This document shows, piece by piece, positions 8,014 to 22,158 of a DNA stretch of 33,336 bases. This DNA is from Bacteroidales bacterium (GTDB lineage: Bacteria; Bacteroidota; Bacteroidia; Bacteroidales; VadinHA17), in contig JANTGF010000044.1 in assembly GCA_024763075.1 (NCBI GenBank), forward strand, positions 1 through 33,336, in the 5' to 3' direction. The position numbers were made by a program, and so were the translations under genes. Every line of letters begins with the position of its first letter. Position 1 is the stretch's first letter. The notes under the pieces are model-generated. The model saw only the letters and a list, made by a program, of their open reading frames with translations, had not been told where the DNA came from and made no database searches.

Positions 8014-10791
8014 ATGAGCCGACCCCGGAAAACTCTGTTGATATTAAGTTGCTATTTTCTTTTTTACCCTGGAATTTCCCGGGCACAGACGCTAAATACT
8101 TTTGGCTTTAAAATGAGTGACGGGCTGGAAGTTGCCTCTCTGAAGCTGGAAGGAAGCAGTGAACTGGTTATGATTCCCCCCGCCAGTTTATTTAGTATGG
8201 ATGTGAATGGTTCAACTATTCTTTCGAATCAGGCAAAGGTGATGTTTGAGAATAATCAAATCAGGTTAATGTTTCCCAATGGTATTACGGGAATTCTGAA
8301 TTCATATAAAAACGGAAATAAGGGATGGAAGGGAGTTTTGAAATTACTCAATCGTTCTTCTGATACACTGGTGATTGAGAATATGGTTCCGTTCGGAGCC
8401 ACGGCAGATCATGTTTATATTGGCTCTGAGGGACCTCCTTCACTCACACGGGCAAAACTTTTTTTACCGGATCAGTCACCGGTTAGCCTGATCTTACCGG
8501 ATAATGCATGGGAAATGGGTTATGGTGCAAGAAACCTGGATGATAATTATGCGGTGTGTGCAATAAGCAGGAGAACCGGCAAGGATAATGCCCGGTTTAC
8601 AAGATACAAAACCATTCTTCCTCCAAATGGTACGGTTGAATACACCTTTTACGCAGATATTTATATGGGAATTTGGCAGAATGGAGTAAAAAAAATGTTC
8701 CATCAGAATTATTTGTATGATCTGGATACCTTTGACAAATCATTATATGAAAGAGAAGATCTGAAATGGATTCGGGATAAATATATTATCACGCTGCAAT
8801 TTGCATGGGACAAGGACTTTTATGATTCCAAAACCGAAAAATTTAATTTTTACGATTTTCTTGAAGATGGGAAAAAACTTTTTGGAGGGTACGATGTTTA
8901 TGGTATCTGGCCTACCTGGCCTCGTTTGGGAGTTGACCAGAGAAGCCAGTGGGAACTTTATGAAGACCTTCCTTATGGTTTGCCAAAACTAAAGGAGCTG
9001 GCAAAGTATGCCAATAGCATGGGCACAAAGTTTTTTATTTCCTATAACCCATGGGATAAAAGTACGGGCTCCGGAGATCATTTACAGCAAATGGCACATC
9101 TGGTTGAAGCGATTCAGGCAGATGGTGTTGTACTGGATACACGGGGAAGTTCCAGTAAACAGTTGCAGGAAGCTGTGGATAGTGTACGAAAAGGTGTGAT
9201 CATGTATTCAGAGGGAATGGCAGTTCCAAAGGATATGCCTGGCATTGTTGCAGGAAGAGTCCACAATGCAATTGAAATTTCACCGGTACTTAACCTGAAT
9301 AAGCTGATCAAACCCGATTTTGCCATCTTCAGGGTTGTAACGCTTAATAAAGGGAATTTTCACCGGGATTTGGCAGTTTCATTTTTTAATGGCTACGGAA
9401 CGGAGATCAACCGGTTCAATCCGGGTAAACCCGACTGGCTAACGGATCAGATGATTTATCTTGGTAAAACTACCCGTATTCTCAGGGAAAATTCTTCCGT
9501 ATTCTTGTTCGATAAATGGACACCCCTTATTTCTACCCGAAAGGATAAGATATGGGCAAACCGTTGGGGAAACGGTTCAAAAGTACTTTATACTGTTTTG
9601 AGTCAGGATCCGGCAGGAGTACAGGGTCCTTTATTTGAGGTTTTTCCTGTTAAGGGAAAGCATTTTGTGAGTTTGTGGAATCATGAGGAGTTAATTCCGG
9701 AAGTCATTGAAGGGAAAAACTATATCCCGGTTAAAGTGGATGCCTATAATTCAGACCTGCAGGGAACCAATGCATCGGGAAATATTGATTGTATAGCCCT
9801 TTTGCCGGAAATGCTAAAGGTTAAAAGAACGGGGGATTCTCTGATGGTCGTGGCCGGTTCAGGTAATCTTATCCGGATTTGGAACAGGGATGTCTCATAT
9901 CAGGAAAAGTTTACCGAATTTAAGAACGATTCAGCGAATTTAAACCTGCTGGAAGTTTTTAACAGAAATGAAGGAAAATTTATTGTTCAGCTGTTTGATG
10001 GTAAGGAATTACTGGATGAAAAGATTGTAAATATTGAATCCGGTCTGCCCATTAAAGAGAATGTGTTTGCAAGAACAGAACGCCACATGAAACCTCCGGA
10101 AGGAATGATCGTAGTTCCGGAGGGAGATTTCTTTTTTAGGGTATCTAACCCCGATCAGTTTATACCTTATCCTGATTTCTCAAAAGGAAAAAAAGTACAT
10201 ATTCAGAAGTTCTATATGGATGAGTTCCCGGTAACAAATAAGGAGTATCTTACTTTTCTTCAGATGTCAAAATATAAACCACAACATCCGGAGAATTTCC
10301 TGAAGCACTGGGAAAAAGGGATGTATCCTGAAGGCCAGGATAATTATCCGGTGGTAAACATCAGTCTGGAGGATGCACAGGCTTATGCAGCCTGGGCCGG
10401 AAAAAGACTGCCTACGGAAATCGAATGGCAATATGCAGCACAGGGTAGCGACGAAAGAAAATGGCCATGGGGAAATAACTTTCATGGTACACGATGTAAT
10501 AATTCTTTTGGCCAGCCAACACCGGTGGATGCATTTCCAAAAGGGGCAAGCCCGTTTCATCTGATGGATATGGTTGGGAACATCTGGCAGTTTACCAGTG
10601 ATGTTTATACGGCAGGTACATATCGCTATGTTATTATCCGTGGCGGGAGTTATTTTAATCCGAAATCCAGTGGCTGGTATGTGAAGGGGGGGCCGCAGCC
10701 TTTAAACCGGACGCAAATGTTATTGCTTCTTTCACCGGGGTTTGACAGAAATGCTACGGTGGGTTTTCGCTGTGTGGCTGATGCAGAATAA
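8014..10791 (+). CDS. Secreted TIM-barrel glycosidase-like protein fused to a cysteine-less FGE-sulfatase-fold domain
   Basis: 925 residues with a signal peptide (first ~24, ending SRAQ). Residues ~25-250 look like a beta-sandwich. Residues ~255-500 look like a TIM-barrel glycosidase: strands such as YIITLQFAWD, KFFISYNPWD, GVVLDTRGSS (Asp375) and GVIMYSEGMA (Glu400), the last two being plausible catalytic positions by analogy with retaining alpha-glycosidases. A beta-rich region follows. Residues ~697-922 are a formylglycine-generating-enzyme (SUMF1) fold: MIVVPEGDFFF, DEFPVTNKEY, RLPTEIEWQYAA, GNIWQFTSDV, RGGSYF, VGFRC. At the positions of the two catalytic cysteines of true FGE there are Asn882 and Gly887, so it should not convert Cys to formylglycine and may instead bind ligand. 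Operon partner of galM. Domain call firm for SUMF1 fold, tentative for the barrel. Confidence 0.75.
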   Translation: MSRPRKTLLILSCYFLFYPGISRAQTLNTFGFKMSDGLEVASLKLEGSSELVMIPPASLFSMDVNGSTILSNQAKVMFENNQIRLMFPNGITGILNSYKNGNKGWKGVLKLLNRSSDTLVIENMVPFGATADHVYIGSEGPPSLTRAKLFLPDQSPVSLILPDNAWEMGYGARNLDDNYAVCAISRRTGKDNARFTRYKTILPPNGTVEYTFYADIYMGIWQNGVKKMFHQNYLYDLDTFDKSLYEREDLKWIRDKYIITLQFAWDKDFYDSKTEKFNFYDFLEDGKKLFGGYDVYGIWPTWPRLGVDQRSQWELYEDLPYGLPKLKELAKYANSMGTKFFISYNPWDKSTGSGDHLQQMAHLVEAIQADGVVLDTRGSSSKQLQEAVDSVRKGVIMYSEGMAVPKDMPGIVAGRVHNAIEISPVLNLNKLIKPDFAIFRVVTLNKGNFHRDLAVSFFNGYGTEINRFNPGKPDWLTDQMIYLGKTTRILRENSSVFLFDKWTPLISTRKDKIWANRWGNGSKVLYTVLSQDPAGVQGPLFEVFPVKGKHFVSLWNHEELIPEVIEGKNYIPVKVDAYNSDLQGTNASGNIDCIALLPEMLKVKRTGDSLMVVAGSGNLIRIWNRDVSYQEKFTEFKNDSANLNLLEVFNRNEGKFIVQLFDGKELLDEKIVNIESGLPIKENVFARTERHMKPPEGMIVVPEGDFFFRVSNPDQFIPYPDFSKGKKVHIQKFYMDEFPVTNKEYLTFLQMSKYKPQHPENFLKHWEKGMYPEGQDNYPVVNISLEDAQAYAAWAGKRLPTEIEWQYAAQGSDERKWPWGNNFHGTRCNNSFGQPTPVDAFPKGASPFHLMDMVGNIWQFTSDVYTAGTYRYVIIRGGSYFNPKSSGWYVKGGPQPLNRTQMLLLLSPGFDRNATVGFRCVADAE

Positions 10792-13408: not shown

Positions 13409-15787
13409 ATGAAATTAAAAATTCTTTTTTCATATCTTTCACTAGGTATTATGATGAGCTGCAACGCTCCTCAAAATCAATCTGATAGTAATTCAGTAGG
13501 AGATTACAAAATGGATCGTACAATTTTACCTATTCATCCTCCACAGCTTGCAGCAGTGACTGAAATGGATGCCAGAAATGTTGAAAAACCAGATATTTTT
13601 GAGGTTAAAGCTCCCGATGGAGCGCCCAATATTGTTGTAGTAATGATTGATGATATAGGGTTTGGAGCTACCAGCACTTTTGGTGGAGCCATTCAAACAC
13701 CAACCTTTGACCGCTTAGCTGATAATGGTTTACGGTTTAATCAATTCCATACAACAGCTTTGTGCTCACCAACAAGAGCATCATTGCTTTCAGGAAGGAA
13801 CCATCATAAAATGAATGTTGGTTCTGTTATGGAAGTAGCTACCGGTTTTCAAGGTAACCAAGGAATAAGACCTGACAATGCAAAATACGTAGCAGAAACG
13901 CTTCGCCAAAATGGGTATAGTACCGCTGCTTTTGGTAAATGGCACGAAACTGCTACTTGGGAAGTTTCTGTTTCCGGACCCTATTTCCGCTGGCCAACCC
14001 ATTCTGGTTTTGATAAATTTTATGGGTTTATTGGCGGAGAAACCAACCAATGGGATCCGGTAATTTTTGATGGTGTTACTAAAGTGGAGAAAAAAGATGA
14101 TCCTGATTATCACTTCACAACAGACATGACCAATGAAGCCATTAAATGGATCAAGTTTCAAAAAGCGATGACACCAGATAAACCTTTTATGGTGTATTAT
14201 GCTCCTGGTGCTGTACATGCACCTCATCATGCCCCAAAAGAATGGATAAAGAAATATAAAGGAAAGTTTGATGCGGGTTGGCAAAAACTACGTGAAGAAA
14301 CTTTTGCTCGTCAAAAAGAAATGGGCATTATTCCAGAAAACACAAAATTGGCTCCAATGCCTAGTGATATTAAAGACTGGGAAAGCCTAAGCGATAATGA
14401 AAAGAAATTATTTGCCTTGCAAATGGAAACCTTTGCAGGTTTTATGGAACATACCGATAATGAAGTTGGCAGAATGGTAGATGCCATTGAAGAAGTGGGC
14501 GCTTTAGATAATACCCTGTTTATATACATTATGGGTGATAATGGCTCAAGTGCTGAGGGCGGACTTGAAGGCACATTTAATGAGTTGATTCACCTTAATG
14601 GCATATTTGATGAAGAAACCATTGACAACATGCTTTCAAAAAAAGACGAATGGGGAGGTCCTAATTCTTTTCCGCATATGAGTGCTGCCTGGGCAGTAGC
14701 TACAGATGCTCCTTTTAAATGGACCAAACAAATGGCAGCCGATTTTGGAGGAACTCGCAACGCTATGGTAATGCATTGGCCAAAAGGGATTAGTGCAAAA
14801 GGAGAAATTAGAAGTCAATTTAGTCATGTTAATGATGTAGCGCCAACTATTTTAGAAGCAACCGGTTTACCTGAACCAAAAATGATTAATGGTGTTAAGC
14901 AAATCCCTTTGGATGGTGTAAGTATGCTATACGCAGCAAAAGATAAAGCTGCAGAAGGTCGCCACAAAGTTCAATATTTTGAGATGTTTGGCAACCGAGC
15001 AATCTACCATGAAGGATGGCTGGCACGTGTAGTACATATGGTTCCTTGGGTAGGTAAACCTCGAAATGCTTTTCAAGATGAGAAATGGGAGCTTTATAAC
15101 GTTAAGGAGGACTTCAGTTTAACAAATAATTTAGCTGGCCAAATGCCGGAAAAAGTAAAAGAAATGCAAGATCTTTTTGAAAAAGAAGCGATTGCAAATA
15201 ATGTCTATCCATTAGACGATAGATTGTACGAACGCTTTAATGCTAAACTTGCAGGTCGTCCGGACTTAATGGGAGACCGCAAGACACTAACCCTGGCGGA
15301 CGGTATGGATGGAATATTAGAAAACACATTTTTGAATGTTAAAAACACTTCTAATACTATAACGGCAAATGTGAATTTAAAAGGTAATGACAAAGGAATT
15401 ATTCTTTGTCAAGGTGGAAAATTTGGTGGATGGGCTTTGTATATGGACAATGGGAAGCCTGCCTACACATATAACTACTTTGGTCTAAAAAGATTTACAG
15501 TAGCATCATCTAAAAAAATTACTAATCCAACTGCAGAGATTAAAATGGTGTTTGATTATGATGGAGGGGGAACTGGAAAAGGTGGTACGGCTACCATCTA
15601 TGTTGACGGAGAACAAGTTGCTCAAGGTAGAATAGAAAAGACTCAACCTGCTGTATTTTCTGCAGATGAAACAGCAGATGTGGGCAAAGATGAAGCAACC
15701 CAAGTAGCTGATCTTGTATTTAAAGATATTGAAGATTCTGAGTTTACCGGTTTTGTTAACAAAGTAACAATCAGCATTCCGAATTAA
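13409..15787 (+). CDS. Arylsulfatase lipoprotein (S1 type, Cys-dependent) with C-terminal lectin-like domain
   Basis: 792 residues. Lipoprotein signal with MMSC (Cys18). The sulfatase signature is complete: Ca ligands Asp81-Asp82 in VVMIDDIGFG, then LCSPTRASLLSGR with Cys119, the residue that must become formylglycine, and GKWHETATWE. The alkaline-phosphatase fold spans ~70-600, including IMGDNGSSAEGG (second Ca/sulfate site). Residues ~630-792 look like a beta-sandwich (GGWALYMDNGKPAYTYNYFG, ATIYVDGEQV), as seen in long S1 arylsulfatases. It hydrolyses sulfate esters, substrate unknown, on the periplasmic side. No FGE with its cysteines or anSME is in the window, so the maturase must be elsewhere. 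Base usage differs from the glycosidase genes on both sides. Confidence 0.95.
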   Translation: MKLKILFSYLSLGIMMSCNAPQNQSDSNSVGDYKMDRTILPIHPPQLAAVTEMDARNVEKPDIFEVKAPDGAPNIVVVMIDDIGFGATSTFGGAIQTPTFDRLADNGLRFNQFHTTALCSPTRASLLSGRNHHKMNVGSVMEVATGFQGNQGIRPDNAKYVAETLRQNGYSTAAFGKWHETATWEVSVSGPYFRWPTHSGFDKFYGFIGGETNQWDPVIFDGVTKVEKKDDPDYHFTTDMTNEAIKWIKFQKAMTPDKPFMVYYAPGAVHAPHHAPKEWIKKYKGKFDAGWQKLREETFARQKEMGIIPENTKLAPMPSDIKDWESLSDNEKKLFALQMETFAGFMEHTDNEVGRMVDAIEEVGALDNTLFIYIMGDNGSSAEGGLEGTFNELIHLNGIFDEETIDNMLSKKDEWGGPNSFPHMSAAWAVATDAPFKWTKQMAADFGGTRNAMVMHWPKGISAKGEIRSQFSHVNDVAPTILEATGLPEPKMINGVKQIPLDGVSMLYAAKDKAAEGRHKVQYFEMFGNRAIYHEGWLARVVHMVPWVGKPRNAFQDEKWELYNVKEDFSLTNNLAGQMPEKVKEMQDLFEKEAIANNVYPLDDRLYERFNAKLAGRPDLMGDRKTLTLADGMDGILENTFLNVKNTSNTITANVNLKGNDKGIILCQGGKFGGWALYMDNGKPAYTYNYFGLKRFTVASSKKITNPTAEIKMVFDYDGGGTGKGGTATIYVDGEQVAQGRIEKTQPAVFSADETADVGKDEATQVADLVFKDIEDSEFTGFVNKVTISIPN

Positions 15788-15834
15788 ATGTTGTAATCGA
15801 TGATAAGTTAATGATTAATAAAGATAATGATAAA

Positions 15835-17445
15835 ATGAAAAAACTAATTTTATTAGTAGCTCTTGCAGTAGCAACAATAGCTACTAAAGCACAAGAACGG
15901 AAGTATGCACCTCTTCCCAAAGATATACCTACTGTTGAAAAAGTAAACTCTAAAATTGGCAAGCTTGAAATGCCAAATGGATATCCAACAAGTGCCACTG
16001 CTAAAAAATTGGAAGACGAGATTCTTTATGTTCACGCGGTAGAAGCCTACCTTAATTCGATTCATGGAGTATCCTTATGGGCTATGAGGAAAGGATTCTT
16101 AGAAGTAGGTGTGAAAGATAATGAGTTTTTAGTCTTTCCAAACATGATGGATGGAAATCAACTATTTTTAACTGCCAATATGGATACATATTATTACATG
16201 AGCTTCATTGACCTCTCAAACGGACCTGTAATTGTAGAAACTCCCGTTGATGCTCTTGGAGTTATTGATGATATGTGGTTTAATTGGGTAACAGACTTTG
16301 GTCTTCCTGGTTCTGACAGAGGCGAAGGTGGTCGCTACTTACTTGTACCAGATTGGTATGATGGACAACTTCCAGATGGCGGCTTTTATGTTCGGCGATC
16401 AAAAGCAAATCATGTTTGGTTAGCAGGCCGATCATTTTTAGAGAATAATTCTCCAGAAAAAGCTATAAATGATGCTGAGGTTTTAGCAGTATATCCATAT
16501 TCCCCAGGTGGCCAAGGAACATCTATTGGTGATTATTTAAATGGCGATGCCAAATTAGGATCTCTTTCAAAATATAAAAAAGCAAAAAAGATTGATGGAA
16601 CGGGAATTACCATCAACACCCTCCCTCCATCAAATTATCAACATTTTGTAATGTTGAATGAAATGATTCAAGAGGAACCTGCTATTTCTATGAATCCTGA
16701 AATTGGAGGTTTAGCCGCTGCAATTGGTATCGAAAAAGGAAAGCCTTTTAATCCAGACGAAAGAACAATCGGCATTCTTAATAAAGCCGTTGAAGTGGCC
16801 AATGCTTATGCTCGAACATCAGCAGTTGGGGCGTTGCCTAGCAAAGGCTTTGATTATTATGGAGGTAATTCTGGTTGGTGGAATCCTTTGTTCGAAGGTG
16901 GATATACTTTTACTACACCTCCGCCAGAAATTGGAGTAAAAGGCGAAGTTATACCTTATGAATATACAGCTGCAAAACGTATTGCCGCCCGGGCATCGTT
17001 TTTCTATTTTGCTACTGGCACTACACCTGCCATGTGCATGCGATTAACCGGTATCGGTTCTCAATATCTTATGAATAATGTTGATGAAAACGGTAATCCT
17101 TTGGATGGAGGTAAAACATATAAAGTAACTTTCCCGAAAGATATTCCGGCAGAAAGATTCTGGTCTGTAACCGTTTACAATATGCAAACACGTTCCATTA
17201 TTCAAACGGATCAAAAATTCCCTAGAGCAGGAAGTCAGTCGTTCCCAACGCCTGCAGCACAAGAAAACAAGGATGGCTCAACTACTATCTATTACGGACC
17301 AACAAAACCTGAAGGTGTTTTTGAAGGGAACTGGGTACAAACGAATGCCAATGAAGGATGGTTTCAGCTTCTAAGATGTTATTCGCCAAGTAAAGCTTTC
17401 TTTGATAAAACATGGCAGGCTGGTAAGCTAGAACTTGTAAAATAA
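15835..17445 (+). CDS. Secreted DUF1254/DUF1214 protein
   Basis: 536 residues from the ATG at 15835, which begins directly with a signal peptide (MKKLILLVALAVATIATKAQ); an in-frame ATG at 15811 would put eight charged residues before it. The N-terminal half (~70-190, LFLTANMDTYYYMSFIDLSN, PVIVETP) fits DUF1254, and the C-terminal part (~400-515, FWSVTVYNMQTRSIIQT, TIYYGPTKP, NWVQTNANEGWFQLLRCYSP) fits DUF1214. The two usually occur together in secreted proteins of unknown enzymatic role. It follows the sulfatase by 47 bp, probably in the same operon, and a broken second copy lies just downstream. Confidence 0.9.
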   Translation: MKKLILLVALAVATIATKAQERKYAPLPKDIPTVEKVNSKIGKLEMPNGYPTSATAKKLEDEILYVHAVEAYLNSIHGVSLWAMRKGFLEVGVKDNEFLVFPNMMDGNQLFLTANMDTYYYMSFIDLSNGPVIVETPVDALGVIDDMWFNWVTDFGLPGSDRGEGGRYLLVPDWYDGQLPDGGFYVRRSKANHVWLAGRSFLENNSPEKAINDAEVLAVYPYSPGGQGTSIGDYLNGDAKLGSLSKYKKAKKIDGTGITINTLPPSNYQHFVMLNEMIQEEPAISMNPEIGGLAAAIGIEKGKPFNPDERTIGILNKAVEVANAYARTSAVGALPSKGFDYYGGNSGWWNPLFEGGYTFTTPPPEIGVKGEVIPYEYTAAKRIAARASFFYFATGTTPAMCMRLTGIGSQYLMNNVDENGNPLDGGKTYKVTFPKDIPAERFWSVTVYNMQTRSIIQTDQKFPRAGSQSFPTPAAQENKDGSTTIYYGPTKPEGVFEGNWVQTNANEGWFQLLRCYSPSKAFFDKTWQAGKLELVK

Positions 17446-17606: not shown

Positions 17607-17950
17607 CGAAAAAATCACAAGGAAACGTTGTCTGATCCAATTCCTGCCAAGGCATTTTGGTCGTTTATGGTGTATGATAATCAAATGCGTTCTATTTTAG
17701 AAACCGAAACAAAAAACAGGTGGGGTTGATAGCAATCTGAAAGGAATCAAAAAAGAAAAAGATGGTACCGTTCCCATTTATTTTGGCCCTAAACCACCAA
17801 AGGGTCAAGAAAAGAATTGGGTGCAAACCATGCCAAACAAAGGATATAATGTACTGTACTGTACTGTTAAGATTATATAGCTCTCTTCAACCATGGTTTG
17901 CCAGAACTTGGGTACCTGGTGACTTTGAATTAGTTGAACATAAGAATTAA
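17607..17950 (+). pseudogene. Remnant of a second DUF1214-type gene, two frameshifts
   Basis: Three frames read in succession reproduce the C-terminus of a DUF1214 protein. Frame one (17607-17729) gives DPIPAKAFWSFMVYDNQMRS and stops at TGA 17727. Frame two (to TAG 17878) gives KDGTVPIYFGPKPPKGQEKN and WVQTMPNKGYN. Frame three (17864-17950) gives LLRLYSSLQPWFARTWVPGD. The first break sits at an A6 run (17711-17716). The second is at three tandem GTACT copies (17851-17865): removing two restores Asn-Val-Leu-Leu-Arg in frame. The N-terminal DUF1254 part is absent or unrecognisable in 17446-17606. It resembles the intact neighbour only moderately, so it is an old paralogue, not a fresh duplicate. 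Confidence 0.85.
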
Positions 17951-17954
17951 AAAA

Positions 17955-18446
17955 ATGAAAAATTATATTATTACACTTTTAGTTTTACCGTTTCTGGTTA
18001 GTTGTTCTACAGAAAATAATAATTCTGAAAAAAACATCGCTGTGGTTGAAAAATATATTGAGGCAGTTGAAAATATGGACTTTAACACAATGACATCCTT
18101 ATTAGACGATCAGTACGTGGGGCTTGGGCCTTCATACACTGATTCGATTAATAAGGAACAAGCTGTTGCAAGCTGGAAATATAATGTGGAGAATCTGTAT
18201 GAAGGAATTGAATATACGAGAGAACAGCATGCACCGGTGTTTATAAAACAAGGATCCAATAAAGGAGAATGGGTTTCAAGCTGGGCAGAATTAAATATCA
18301 CCTACAAAAACGGTGAAAAAGTGGTAATCTGGGCCAAAACAGCTTATAAGATCGAAAAAGACAGGATTGTTAAAAGCTTTACTTTTTATAATGAAGCAGA
18401 TGTTTTAAGGCAATTGGGATATGTTTTTATAAAGAACGATTTATAA
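17955..18446 (+). CDS. NTF2/SnoaL-like lipoprotein
   Basis: 163 residues from the ATG at 17955, chosen because it starts the lipoprotein signal MKNYIITLLVLPFLVSC directly; an in-frame ATG at 17934 would put seven polar residues in front. After the lipobox, the pattern VVEKYIEAVENMDFNTMTSLLDDQYV is the helix/turn opening of NTF2-like (SnoaL) domains, followed by the curved sheet strands (EWVSSWAELNITYKNGEKVV, RIVKSFTFYNEAD). No catalytic residues were recognised. Starts 4 bp after the DUF1214 remnant. Confidence 0.75.
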   Translation: MKNYIITLLVLPFLVSCSTENNNSEKNIAVVEKYIEAVENMDFNTMTSLLDDQYVGLGPSYTDSINKEQAVASWKYNVENLYEGIEYTREQHAPVFIKQGSNKGEWVSSWAELNITYKNGEKVVIWAKTAYKIEKDRIVKSFTFYNEADVLRQLGYVFIKNDL

Positions 18447-18473
18447 ACGATTAAGATTATAAATTAAAATAAA

Positions 18474-19010
18474 ATGAATCAGATTAAATTAGTAGTTGCA
18501 ATCCTTATGATTGCAGGAATTAGCGAGGTAAAAGCACAGGTGCCGGAAACACAGGCATTACCTGACACATCAAAAATGACCTATAATCAAATTTCTCAGT
18601 CGCTCGGGTTATTTCTTTATCCAACCAAAGGGCAAAGCCACCAACAGCAAAAAAAGGATGAATTTGAATGTTATAAATGGGCAATGGAACAATCGGGAAT
18701 TGATCCCTTAAATCTCCCCAAAATAGAGGCAGAAGTTCAGTCCGGGCCAACCGGGGGGGCTGTTAGAGGTGCGGCCCGGGGTGCGGCAGCGGGAGCAGCT
18801 ATTGGAGCCATTACAGGCGATGCAGGCGAGGGTGCAGCTATTGGCGCAACAGCCGGAGGGATGCGCGGTATGAGAAAAGGCAGGCAGGCACAGGCTCAGC
18901 AAAACCAACAGTCTCAGGCGAATGCAGCGGCTGCCGAAGATGAACTAAAGAATACTTTTATAAAAGCTTTTTCAGTTTGTATTGAAGGCAAAGGTTATAC
19001 GGTAAAATGA
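18474..19010 (+). CDS. Secreted glycine-zipper protein
   Basis: 178 residues with a signal peptide ending in VKAQ. A polar segment with an isolated Cys (DEFECYKWAMEQSGIDP) precedes a glycine zipper (~93-132): repeated GxxxG/AxxxA spacing in GGAVRGAARGAAAGAAIGA and GEGAAIGATAGGMRG. A Gln/Ala-rich linker (QAQAQQNQQSQANAAAAED) and a short C-terminal segment with a second Cys (FSVCIEGKGYTVK) follow. The two cysteines may pair. Gly-zipper proteins associate with membranes or self-assemble; this one resembles the YMGG-type family. It lies between the NTF2-like lipoprotein and the barrel genes, all on the plus strand. Confidence 0.75.
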   Translation: MNQIKLVVAILMIAGISEVKAQVPETQALPDTSKMTYNQISQSLGLFLYPTKGQSHQQQKKDEFECYKWAMEQSGIDPLNLPKIEAEVQSGPTGGAVRGAARGAAAGAAIGAITGDAGEGAAIGATAGGMRGMRKGRQAQAQQNQQSQANAAAAEDELKNTFIKAFSVCIEGKGYTVK

Positions 19011-19033
19011 TTGAATGATTGAATGATTGAATC
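19006..19033. repeat. 8-bp tandem repeat (GAATGATT, about 3.3 copies)
   Basis: The 8-mer repeats head to tail across the TGA stop (19008-19010) of the glycine-zipper gene. Because the stop lies in the first copy, changes in copy number would only alter the spacing to the next gene. Confidence 0.8.
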
Positions 19034-19068
19034 GTTTCTTTAAATGATAAAACCGGAATTAAACTTTG

Positions 19069-20052
19069 ATGAACAATAAATTTATTTTAATTGTCGCGAT
19101 ACAAATTTTACTACTTCTAAGCATAACATTGGATTGTTCTGCCCAGAAAAAAGAGAAACCGCTGATAGACACACTGGACAATGCTTTTGACCTTAGTCAT
19201 TACCTCTATGATCTTCACGGCTTTTTGCCGGTTATATCTCCAATTACTGAACCGGCAGTAGGTTATGGGGCTGCAGCAGCAGGAATGTATTTCATTCCAA
19301 AGAAGAAAAGTAATGATCTGAAATTTCAAATGCCGGATATTGTAGGGCTTGCCGGAGGACTTACAGCAAATGGTACCTGGTTTGCCGGGGGTGGGTATTT
19401 TGGTTTTTGGAAAAAGGACCATATTCGATATCGTGGAATTTTTGGTTATGGCGATATAAATCTAACGTTCTATGGTTCAGAAAATCCTGCAAAATTTTCA
19501 ATTAGCACTTACTTTTTGTTGCAACAGGCAATGTTCAGGCTGGGTGATAGTAGGCTTATGTTGGGAGGAAAGTATCAATTGGGGAAATCCACGATAACAT
19601 TTTTTGAAGATAGTGATATTCCGGGAATCAATCCATTCGACCTTGACATGGTAAATAGTGGCATTGGATTGATATCTGAATATGAGAATTATAATAATAT
19701 ACTTTCTCCCACAAAAGGTTTAAGGGTAAATCTAAGCTATGATCAGTATCTGGAAGTAATGGGGAGTGACCGAAATTTTGGCCGGTTCACTTTGTTTTCG
19801 CATTTTTACCAACCTATTATCAGAAAAAAGTGGATAGCTGGCTTTAGAATGGAATCTCAGTTGGCAACAGGGGACCCTCCTTTTTACATGACGCCATTTT
19901 TAAACTTAAGAGGGGTGCCGGTTATGCGCTATCAGGGAGAATTGGCGGCATTGGTTGAGACGGAGCAGGAAATTATGCTTACTGGAAGATGGAGTATAGT
20001 GGGCTTTGGTGGTTATGGCAGGGCATTTAAATCATTGGATAGTATGTCTTAA
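19069..20052 (+). CDS. BamA/D15-type outer-membrane barrel, interrupted by an in-frame TAA
   Basis: 327 residues from ATG 19069 (a TTG precedes it by one codon). Signal peptide ends LDCSAQ. No POTRA domain is visible; the rest reads as the 16-stranded D15 barrel type: PITEPAVGYGAAAAGMYF, NILSPTKGLRVNLSYDQYL, PFLNLRGVPVMRYQGE (the LRGxxxxRYxG barrel-lumen signature), then TGRWSIVGFGGYG. It ends at TAA 20050-20052, but the same frame continues for 46 codons with the expected last strands (GAGFRYLIARLLG, DWAFYVVVGSSWMK) to TAA 20191-20193. As written the product lacks its final strands and beta-signal, so it is probably non-functional unless the stop is read through or is a sequencing error. Confidence 0.85.
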   Translation: MNNKFILIVAIQILLLLSITLDCSAQKKEKPLIDTLDNAFDLSHYLYDLHGFLPVISPITEPAVGYGAAAAGMYFIPKKKSNDLKFQMPDIVGLAGGLTANGTWFAGGGYFGFWKKDHIRYRGIFGYGDINLTFYGSENPAKFSISTYFLLQQAMFRLGDSRLMLGGKYQLGKSTITFFEDSDIPGINPFDLDMVNSGIGLISEYENYNNILSPTKGLRVNLSYDQYLEVMGSDRNFGRFTLFSHFYQPIIRKKWIAGFRMESQLATGDPPFYMTPFLNLRGVPVMRYQGELAALVETEQEIMLTGRWSIVGFGGYGRAFKSLDSMS

Positions 20053-20193
20053 GGTTCATCAGCATGGAATACAGGAGCAGGGTTCCGCTACCTGATTGCC
20101 CGGTTACTTGGCTTAAAAATGGGCATTGATGTTGCCAGGGGACCTGAGGATTGGGCGTTTTATGTAGTTGTTGGAAGTTCGTGGATGAAATAA
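20053..20193 (+). pseudogene. Severed C-terminal strands of the D15-type barrel gene
   Basis: 46 in-frame codons directly after TAA 20050, encoding GAGFRYLIARLLGLKMGIDV, ARGPEDWAFYVV and a terminal aromatic Trp-Met-Lys. This is the normal C-terminus of the barrel. No start codon or separate promoter is apparent, so it is not an independent gene. Confidence 0.8.
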
Positions 20194-20230
20194 TTCTTAG
20201 TGTCTTTTAAGCAAAAATTACACTTACCAG

Positions 20231-20262
20231 TTGAATTTTCATTTAATAATGACTTATATTTA
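20231..20262 (+). promoter_or_regulatory. Candidate Bacteroidota promoter for the PorT-type gene
   Basis: TTG (20231-20233), 21 bases, then TATATTTA (20255-20262), seven of eight positions of TAnnTTTG. It would start transcription shortly before the ATG at 20287 and suggests this barrel gene has its own promoter. Confidence 0.4.
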
Positions 20263-20286
20263 CCAATTCGAAAATAAGCAGTTAAA

Positions 20287-21078
20287 ATGAAGAAAATCTT
20301 ACTTGTATTTTTCACTTTATTCATAGGTATCCAATCACATTCGCAGGTGCTTATATCTTTATTACTGGGTGATAAATTGAATTCTCCAAACCTGGAGTTT
20401 GGCCTCGAAGGAGGAATCAACTGGACAAACATATCAGGTTTGGAGACAAATAATTATTCCCGTAAATGGAATCTTGGGTTTTATTTTGATATCCGCCTGA
20501 AAAACCAATGGTTCCTTTATACAGGTGTTTTAGTAAAATCCAATATGGGCGTTGATAAACTCACGGACAAGGATCTGGACTTTCTTGGGGCTACTATTTA
20601 TAAAGACTTTGAAGATCCTAATTTGCGGGCACAGGGGGATTATAGCCAAAAGATGAATTATTTTTTAGTACCTGCACTTGCAAAGTATAAGTTTAAAAAC
20701 CATATGTATGTGGAAGCCGGGCCTCAATTTGGCCTGATGTCCAAATCATGGGTGGAATTCGAATCGGATATTGAGGGCAGGGATGCTATTATTAAAGAGT
20801 ATAATAAAGAAAAGATAAAAAAGCTGGATGCTGGTATTATGATTGGAATGGGATATACCCTCTTTAAAGGATCTGGTTGGACATTGGGAGCTAAATATTA
20901 TTATGGCTTTGTGGATGTATATAAAGACAGGGCGGGGACCAAAAACAGTTCAATATTCCTAAAATTAAATATTCCCATTGGGGCAGGGGAAGGCGCTAAG
21001 CAAAAAGCCGCAGAAAAAGCCGCAAAAAAGGCAGCAAAAAAGAAAGCACGCCAAGAAGCAAAAAATAATAAAAAGTAA
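20287..21078 (+). CDS. PorT-family outer-membrane beta-barrel protein with Lys/Ala-rich tail
   Basis: 263 residues. Signal peptide ends QSHSQ. The body resembles the small barrels of the PorT/OMP_b-brl family common in Bacteroidota: FGLEGGINWTNISGL, NLGFYFDIRLKNQWFLYTGV, NYFLVPALAKYKFKNHMYVE, AGPQFGLMSKS, GIMIGMGYTLFKGSGWTLGA, and last strand NSSIFLKLNIPIG. About 28 residues rich in Lys and Ala (KQKAAEKAAKKAAKKKARQE) follow, probably helical and strongly basic, after the strand that normally ends the barrel. Role unknown; transport or envelope structure is typical. The gene is intact, unlike the barrel genes on each side. Confidence 0.8.
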   Translation: MKKILLVFFTLFIGIQSHSQVLISLLLGDKLNSPNLEFGLEGGINWTNISGLETNNYSRKWNLGFYFDIRLKNQWFLYTGVLVKSNMGVDKLTDKDLDFLGATIYKDFEDPNLRAQGDYSQKMNYFLVPALAKYKFKNHMYVEAGPQFGLMSKSWVEFESDIEGRDAIIKEYNKEKIKKLDAGIMIGMGYTLFKGSGWTLGAKYYYGFVDVYKDRAGTKNSSIFLKLNIPIGAGEGAKQKAAEKAAKKAAKKKARQEAKNNKK

Positions 21079-21099
21079 AATACATATATTTAAATCATA

Positions 21100-22044
21100 A
21101 TGAAAGTTTTCAATAGAATCTCAATCCTTTTGGTCTTATTTTTATTTTTGATTGCTCAAAAAAGTCAGGCACAATATGCCTCAAAGAAAGTTAGGTCTGT
21201 CCACCAGGTATATACCGATAGCCTGAAAAATATTGAATACAACTATACTTTTCCAATTTGGGGGCAGGGGGCATACTCTAAGGGCTTTGATATTCCTTAT
21301 CCTATTGGTATAATGACAAATGGGATCTGGATGGACCAGGGGATACTGATTGATAATATGCAACTTGGAATAAAGACTGACAACCAGGATATCCCATTGA
21401 CCCCTGTTGATTTTATTGGATTCGGTGACAATACAAACACTTCCTATTCGGTTAATGTAAGGCCTGATATCTGGATTTTCCCATTTCTAAATGTATATGG
21501 ATTGTTTGGTTTAGGAAACTCCCATACAGAAGTATTCCTAACGGAACCTGTAGATCTTAAATCAGTGGTAGATCAGGGAATCCGGACGATGGGCTTTGGT
21601 ATTATGGGAGCAGCCGGAATCGGGCCAGTGTGGTTGTCGGTTGATGCCAATTTTACATGGAATAAACCAGAATTGCTGGATAAGGCCACCAGGGTTAATG
21701 TATTGGGTTTACGTTTGGGCCATACTTTTATTTTTAAAAAACATACCGAAAGTAACATTGGCTTATGGGTAGGTGGCATGCGCCTGGCTATGGCTACTGA
21801 AACAAGTGGTGCAATAAAAATGATTGATGCCCTGCCACCAGAAACATGGGAGCGAAGGGATGAAATTGTTAGTGACTACTGGAACTGGTACGATAATGAA
21901 GCTACTCTACCACAAAAAAAAGTTGCAGACAAGGTGCTTACACCAATAGTGGATCGTCTTGAGAATGCAGACGGGGAGATGGTAATCAGATATGGAATGG
22001 ATAAGCAAACAAAGCAACTTTGGAACGGGGTAATTGGTATATAA
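21100..22044 (+). CDS. Predicted outer-membrane barrel protein, interrupted by an in-frame TAA
   Basis: 314 residues with a signal peptide ending in SQAQ. Alternating strands (YSVNVRPDIWIFPFLNVYGL, GFGIMGAAGIGPVWLSVDAN, VNVLGLRLGHTFIFKK) and a loop with ATETSGAIKMIDALPPETW suggest a transporter-like barrel; I do not recognise a named family with certainty. It ends at TAA 22042-22044, yet the same frame continues 37 codons (YQLNKRWQFRTEAGIIGDRK, ALFSVNYRFLGF) to TAA 22156-22158, exactly the kind of final two strands a barrel needs. The sequence just before and after (VIGI, then YQLNKRW) would join well with Gln, i.e. CAA changed to TAA. 22 bp after the PorT-type gene. Confidence 0.8.
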   Translation: MKVFNRISILLVLFLFLIAQKSQAQYASKKVRSVHQVYTDSLKNIEYNYTFPIWGQGAYSKGFDIPYPIGIMTNGIWMDQGILIDNMQLGIKTDNQDIPLTPVDFIGFGDNTNTSYSVNVRPDIWIFPFLNVYGLFGLGNSHTEVFLTEPVDLKSVVDQGIRTMGFGIMGAAGIGPVWLSVDANFTWNKPELLDKATRVNVLGLRLGHTFIFKKHTESNIGLWVGGMRLAMATETSGAIKMIDALPPETWERRDEIVSDYWNWYDNEATLPQKKVADKVLTPIVDRLENADGEMVIRYGMDKQTKQLWNGVIGI

Positions 22045-22158
22045 TATCAGTTAAATAAAAGATGGCAGTTCCGTACAGAAGCCGGAATTATTGGTGATAG
22101 AAAATCAGCTCTTTTTTCTGTAAATTATCGCTTTTTGGGTTTTCGTACAAAAAATTAA
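22045..22158 (+). pseudogene. Severed C-terminal strands of the barrel gene at 21100
   Basis: 37 in-frame codons after TAA 22042, encoding two amphipathic strands that end in an aromatic-rich beta-signal-like motif (VNYRFLGF). No start codon at the front; not an independent gene. Confidence 0.8.

Follow-up and report, generated by a model that had tools for sequence, protein, structure and literature searches.

The stretch analysed here, referred to throughout as the window, is the whole of a 33,336-base contig (C44) in the 4.59 Mb, 197-contig assembly of a Bacteroidales bacterium, and it carries a set of outer-membrane genes, here called the module, that is damaged at three loci. Its genes lie in the order intact DUF1254-DUF1214 gene, DUF1214 remnant, NTF2-like lipoprotein, glycine-zipper protein, a barrel called b1, a PorT-like barrel of the OMP_b-brl_2 family, and a second barrel called b2. 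An earlier reading made from the sequence alone had claimed three lesions in this run, and all three are present: the DUF1214 remnant lies in pieces, b1 and b2 each contain an in-frame TAA, and the frames of the genes lying between the lesions are open. The features, with the damaged loci given first, are as follows.

17607..17950, + strand: putative second DUF1254-DUF1214 gene, a remnant that retains the DUF1214 end only and has two breaks; matches the intact copy and copies in other genomes.
19069..20052, + strand: b1, probable Omp85-like barrel, ending early at TAA 20050-20052; PF01103 at 22.4 bits (below the cut-off of 24) and Foldseek on a relative's model.
20053..20193, + strand: b1 tail after the stop, with the normal C-terminal end and the predicted last three strands; identified by identity to relatives.
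21100..22044, + strand: b2, barrel of no named family, ending early at TAA 22042-22044; no Pfam or NCBIfam match, open in 29/29 relatives translated.
22045..22158, + strand: b2 tail after the stop, with the normal C-terminal end (predicted to comprise the final two strands and the remainder of the third-last); dN/dS (ratio of nonsynonymous to synonymous substitution rates) of 0.096 relative to the congener across its 37 codons, and the congener protein model.
15811..17445, + strand: intact DUF1254-DUF1214 gene, first of the tandem pair; PF06863 and PF06742 over cut-off.
17955..18446, + strand: intact NTF2/SnoaL-like lipoprotein; PF13474 at 23.5 bits (cut-off 22), same position in L104, L105 and L125.
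18474..19010, + strand: intact glycine-zipper protein; PF13436 and PF13488 over cut-off.
20287..21078, + strand: intact PorT-like barrel (OMP_b-brl_2); PF13568 at E 5e-21, dN/dS 0.098 against the congener.
13409..15787, + strand: intact sulfatase neighbouring the module, with a weak C-terminal LamG-like stretch; PF00884 at E 3e-63, and a 58% identical sulfatase lies in L107 beside DUF1254/1214, b1 and b2.

The DUF1214 remnant consists of three pieces in changing frames (17610-17714, 17749-17862 and 17864-17938) that match residues 435-544 of the 544-residue product of the intact gene upstream at 48-49% identity; with the corresponding region of DUF1254/1214 genes from other genomes, identity reaches 64%. 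One frame break falls between 17714 and 17749 and the other near 17862, at a five-base repeat run (17851-17867). A gene that is merely frameshifted is ruled out by the absence of the first four fifths, and the damage amounts to a large deletion together with the two frame breaks. Because the pieces match the intact copy, because the first four fifths are gone, and because DUF1254/1214 tandem pairs are present in G034 (contig C145) and L115, the remnant is best read, on sequence grounds, as the decayed second copy of such a pair. In another genome (G042, contig C67) two DUF1214 matches lie directly before a b1-like gene. No paper naming both DUF1254 and DUF1214 was found in the literature, although DUF1254 is named in five.

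The stop in b1 is codon 328 and is followed by 46 further open codons, to 20193. At the corresponding alignment column five relatives or paralogues have sense codons, within a variable loop; this alignment omits the first b1-type gene of L128, which itself carries a stop. When mapped on the AlphaFold model of an intact relative, the stop is predicted to fall in the loop that leads into the third-last strand, so that the last three strands would be lost. The modelled relative, from G034, is a 16-strand barrel (mean predicted local distance difference test score, pLDDT, 84) for which a Foldseek search of the PDB returned TamA and BamA first, with template modelling (TM) scores of 0.55-0.59 by query in the top five rows, and its score against the Omp85 profile is, like that of b1, under the cut-off (23.0 bits). 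The fold of the relative's model together with these sub-cut-off scores suggests that b1 is an Omp85-like barrel. As with the noNterm Omp85 proteins treated in the available part of PMC4104836, the b1 relatives, one of which was modelled with 16 strands, appear to be Omp85-like barrels that leave no space for POTRA domains; unlike those proteins, b1 and the tested relative lie under the Pfam and NCBIfam cut-offs, and the label Omp85-like is used here without a subfamily. The tail behind the stop is 67-83% identical to three relatives, compared with 56-60% for the part before it. In the congener (G001, locus L102, the sole genome of the same genus found) the contig starts inside b1, and 23 of the last 24 residues are the same as in the b1 tail of the window. 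An open paralogue, 60% identical, lies elsewhere in the same genome on contig C19. Between the glycine-zipper gene and b1 lies a short tandem run (window 19006-19032), and an identical 27-base sequence occurs close to the beginning of contig C57.

The stop in b2 is codon 315, with 37 further open codons to 22158. Among the 29 relatives translated (the 30 loci of a scan of named genomes, less L127, L130 and L131, which are cut by a contig end or matched in part, plus L068 and L069) none has an internal stop, and at the stop column 27 have the same residue type and two another. The protein has no Pfam or NCBIfam match; a relative is modelled by AlphaFold as a barrel smaller than that of b1 with a helical insert (mean pLDDT 86), and a fold search with this relative returned generic barrels only, without a family. 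No second copy of b2 was found in the genome. On the model of the congener protein the stop lies inside the third-last strand, and the end of that strand and the last two would be lost. The earlier statement that both stops fall just before the beta-signal is thus roughly right, with the difference that the b1 stop is placed in the loop that precedes the final three strands and the b2 stop within the third-last strand.

The barrel between b1 and b2 resembles the OMP_b-brl_2 barrels in matching their family; its PorT name is the label of the sequence-only reading, and its assignment here rests on PF13568 and not on a role in type IX secretion.

Late stops of this kind are not equally frequent in the sampled part of the genome. 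A codon-statistics screen covered 396 kb of it (~9%), made up of 19 pieces of 20 kb and one 16 kb piece, not picked at random, that surrounds the C19 paralogue of b1; to be detected, a stop must have 100 or more codons ahead of it and 30 or more after it, and frameshifts are not seen by the screen. Comparable stops occur in 0 of 283 coding open reading frames (ORFs) of the sample and in 2 of 22 in the window (Fisher 0.005), a comparison made post hoc, the window having been picked for its lesions. The sample gave 30 candidate rows, of which eight short tails were read and none resembled a protein end; the other 22 were taken by eye as neighbouring genes. A Pfam scan of 20 of these 22 found no domain across the junction, although at the threshold used four of them were without any match and some were matched on one side only, so that the judgement there was by eye, as it was for the two remaining rows, from L058. 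Three further window rows were returned by the screen, one of which runs into the sulfatase gene, and the other two, when read, are unlike protein ends. Among barrel matches of two families in this genome there is no stop in 27 PF00593 matches, nor in 10 PF13568 matches (which include the PorT-like gene of the window and one match below cut-off).

In other genomes the module is patchy. Among 117 genomes of the family b2 was found in nine, and among 395 drawn from the class in 10, the genome itself being counted in both; of the nine, only the window copy has a true internal stop. A conserved internal TAA in b2 of G135 and G137 was considered and rejected, the frames showing the natural terminator. 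G060 has a partial b2 match only. In the scan of named genomes 30 loci with b2 came to light, many of them in Flavobacteriaceae, and in 18 of the 30 the PorT-like gene lies directly before b2 (E 1e-5); carriers of b2 include Lutibacter agarilyticus and Gelidibacter. Intact versions in relatives, for which the sequence-only reading had proposed a search, exist: the run of NTF2-like, glycine-zipper, b1, PorT-like and b2 genes is intact in G034 (L125), and in the congener the b1 tail, the PorT-like gene and b2 are open in the same order. In L126 the run extends from within the glycine-zipper gene, where the contig seems to begin, and in L107 (43-7404) DUF1254/1214, sulfatase, a Phenol_MetA_deg-type barrel, b1 and b2 stand in a row, all open. 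L115 and L120 likewise carry DUF1254/1214 genes close to b2, and G042 (C67) carries them close to a b1-like gene; in L068 and L069 (genus g11) the order is reversed, with b2 directly before the PorT-like gene.

Broken copies also occur outside the window. In L117, b1 is reduced to its last ~75 residues with a stop and a neighbouring barrel is in pieces, while the adjoining PorT-like gene and b2 are free of stops. G235 (L189) retains only the end of b2 and G355 (L188) only its start; in G267, of the same genus as G235, b2 is complete. In a Maribacter sp. the b1-type gene beside b2 (L128:9307-10371) is interrupted by an in-frame TAA, 33 codons short of its end, behind which the tail is intact, and its near relative (L129:3600-4664) is open. 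In a Cytophagales chromosome (L131:8004-8870) the b2 match immediately preceding a PorT-like gene covers only ~54 residues, possibly a truncated b2. In the b1 search of the 395 class genomes many of the matches listed carry one stop, with the match extending to model position 376-377; two such rows, L160 and L177, proved when read to be natural ends, and in G375, where the match runs to 375 and holds one TAA, b1 may be truly broken.

Because the module is patchy, is broken in other genomes too and has been hit three times here, the stretch is probably a dispensable accessory outer-membrane module in stepwise decay, best read as a case of ordinary gene-by-gene loss and not of a new decoding mechanism. 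In the sequence of events proposed, most of the second DUF1254/DUF1214 gene would have been deleted early, with loss of frame in what remained; later, substitutions would have created TAA in b1 and b2, where relatives have sense codons, the unspoilt tails suggesting that this was recent. The truncated b1 and b2 would be expected not to be inserted by the barrel assembly machinery (BAM), because the last two to three strands and the C-terminal beta-signal are missing, and to be degraded, as general knowledge of outer-membrane protein assembly suggests. Loss of one component would weaken selection on the others, and more lesions could then accumulate in the same operon. In Shigella, according to the available part of PMC3218036, decayed genes concentrate in operons, and selection on the remaining genes is held to relax once one of them has been inactivated. 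The likeness to that account lies in the inactivation of several genes of one operon in one genome, in the proneness of membrane proteins to loss and in convergent loss across lineages; the differences are that the host here is an uncultured Bacteroidales-like organism, in whose genome the 9% sampled shows no comparable stops, and that the module shows no raised dN/dS.

Several observations weigh against decay. Three genes of the module, the NTF2-like, the glycine-zipper and the PorT-like, still have open frames. The stops fall in the last 13% (b1) and 11% (b2) of their frames, which has a probability of 0.013 if positions are uniform and is not predicted by plain decay. The test of relaxed selection by dN/dS that the sequence-only reading had proposed showed no relaxation: compared with the congener, b2 has a ratio of 0.155 before the stop and 0.096 behind it, and the PorT-like gene one of 0.098, so that relaxation is either too recent to show or absent; a pairwise ratio averages both lineages, and very recent relaxation is invisible to it. 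Because the tails are unspoilt and as conserved as the rest, most of the divergence having passed under constraint, the stops in b1 and b2 appear, from sequence comparison, to be either recent or assembly errors.

The latter is the chief rival explanation, in which both TAA are assembly or strain-mixture artefacts of the contig and only the DUF1214 remnant is real. Unspoilt tails after both stops are what truly open frames would give, and the assembly is one of 197 contigs for a species of which no other genome was found. However, the absence of stops from the sampled ORFs and the 37 family barrel matches indicates that the assembly is not generally error-prone where examined, and two nonsense changes in one operon would require a local fault; an artefact is considered fairly unlikely.

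The sequence-only reading had also raised selection against surface exposure, in which loss of surface barrels is favoured under phage or predator pressure and the two barrel genes b1 and b2 were inactivated separately. That both stops strike outer-membrane barrels fits this account, as does the late TAA in the Maribacter b1-type gene whose near relative is open. As a general process, however, it is disfavoured by the stop-free PF00593 and PF13568 matches, by the third lesion, the oldest-looking, which lies in a DUF1254/DUF1214 gene and not in a barrel, and by the PorT-like barrel between b1 and b2, which is open and constrained; such selection is improbable here. Little credence is likewise given to the idea that late truncation itself was selected, taking the barrel off the surface while most of the operon is still translated and downstream genes escape polarity; the three late TAA (b1 and b2 of the window and the Maribacter b1-type gene beside b2) would then be convergent, and three examples are too slender a basis.

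That the TAA are read through, by recoding or as leaky stops yielding little full-length barrel, would account for the conserved tails and for the single stop in each frame before its normal end, but is very improbable, given that none of the 36 tRNAs found in the assembly has a UAA-reading anticodon, that aligned relatives have sense codons at both sites, that no single inserted residue specially fits both a near-invariant column (b2) and a variable loop (b1), and that the intact sulfatase, DUF1254, NTF2-like and PorT-like genes (four of the five intact genes checked beside the stops) terminate in TAA, as had been noted earlier; recoded TAA was rejected on tRNA content, relatives and the other barrels of the genome.

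Relaxed selection after transfer had been offered as the simple reading. Decay of a dispensable cluster is retained from it as the best reading, and transfer is not: b2 is patchy in the family, yet the congener has it together with the b1 tail and the PorT-like gene, and recent transfer was rejected on composition, the guanine-plus-cytosine (GC) content of the cluster being 0.385 compared with a block mean of 0.390 over 380 kb of the genome (standard deviation 0.021; 34th percentile of 83 blocks).

Further upstream, a 925-residue protein (window 8014-10791) with a C-terminal FGE-sulfatase (sulfatase-modifying factor-like) domain lies ~2.6 kb before the sulfatase at 13409. For the recurring neighbourhood no stated function was found, and the parts of the literature on pseudogenes and outer-membrane genes in Bacteroidetes that were available yielded nothing on the module. 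If decay is the right reading, the window would offer an example, from an uncultured lineage, of an outer-membrane module whose genes are disappearing one after another, with an intact relative at hand for comparison, and it draws attention to a neighbourhood of sulfatase, DUF1254/DUF1214, Omp85-like barrel, PorT-like barrel and b2 that recurs in other genomes.

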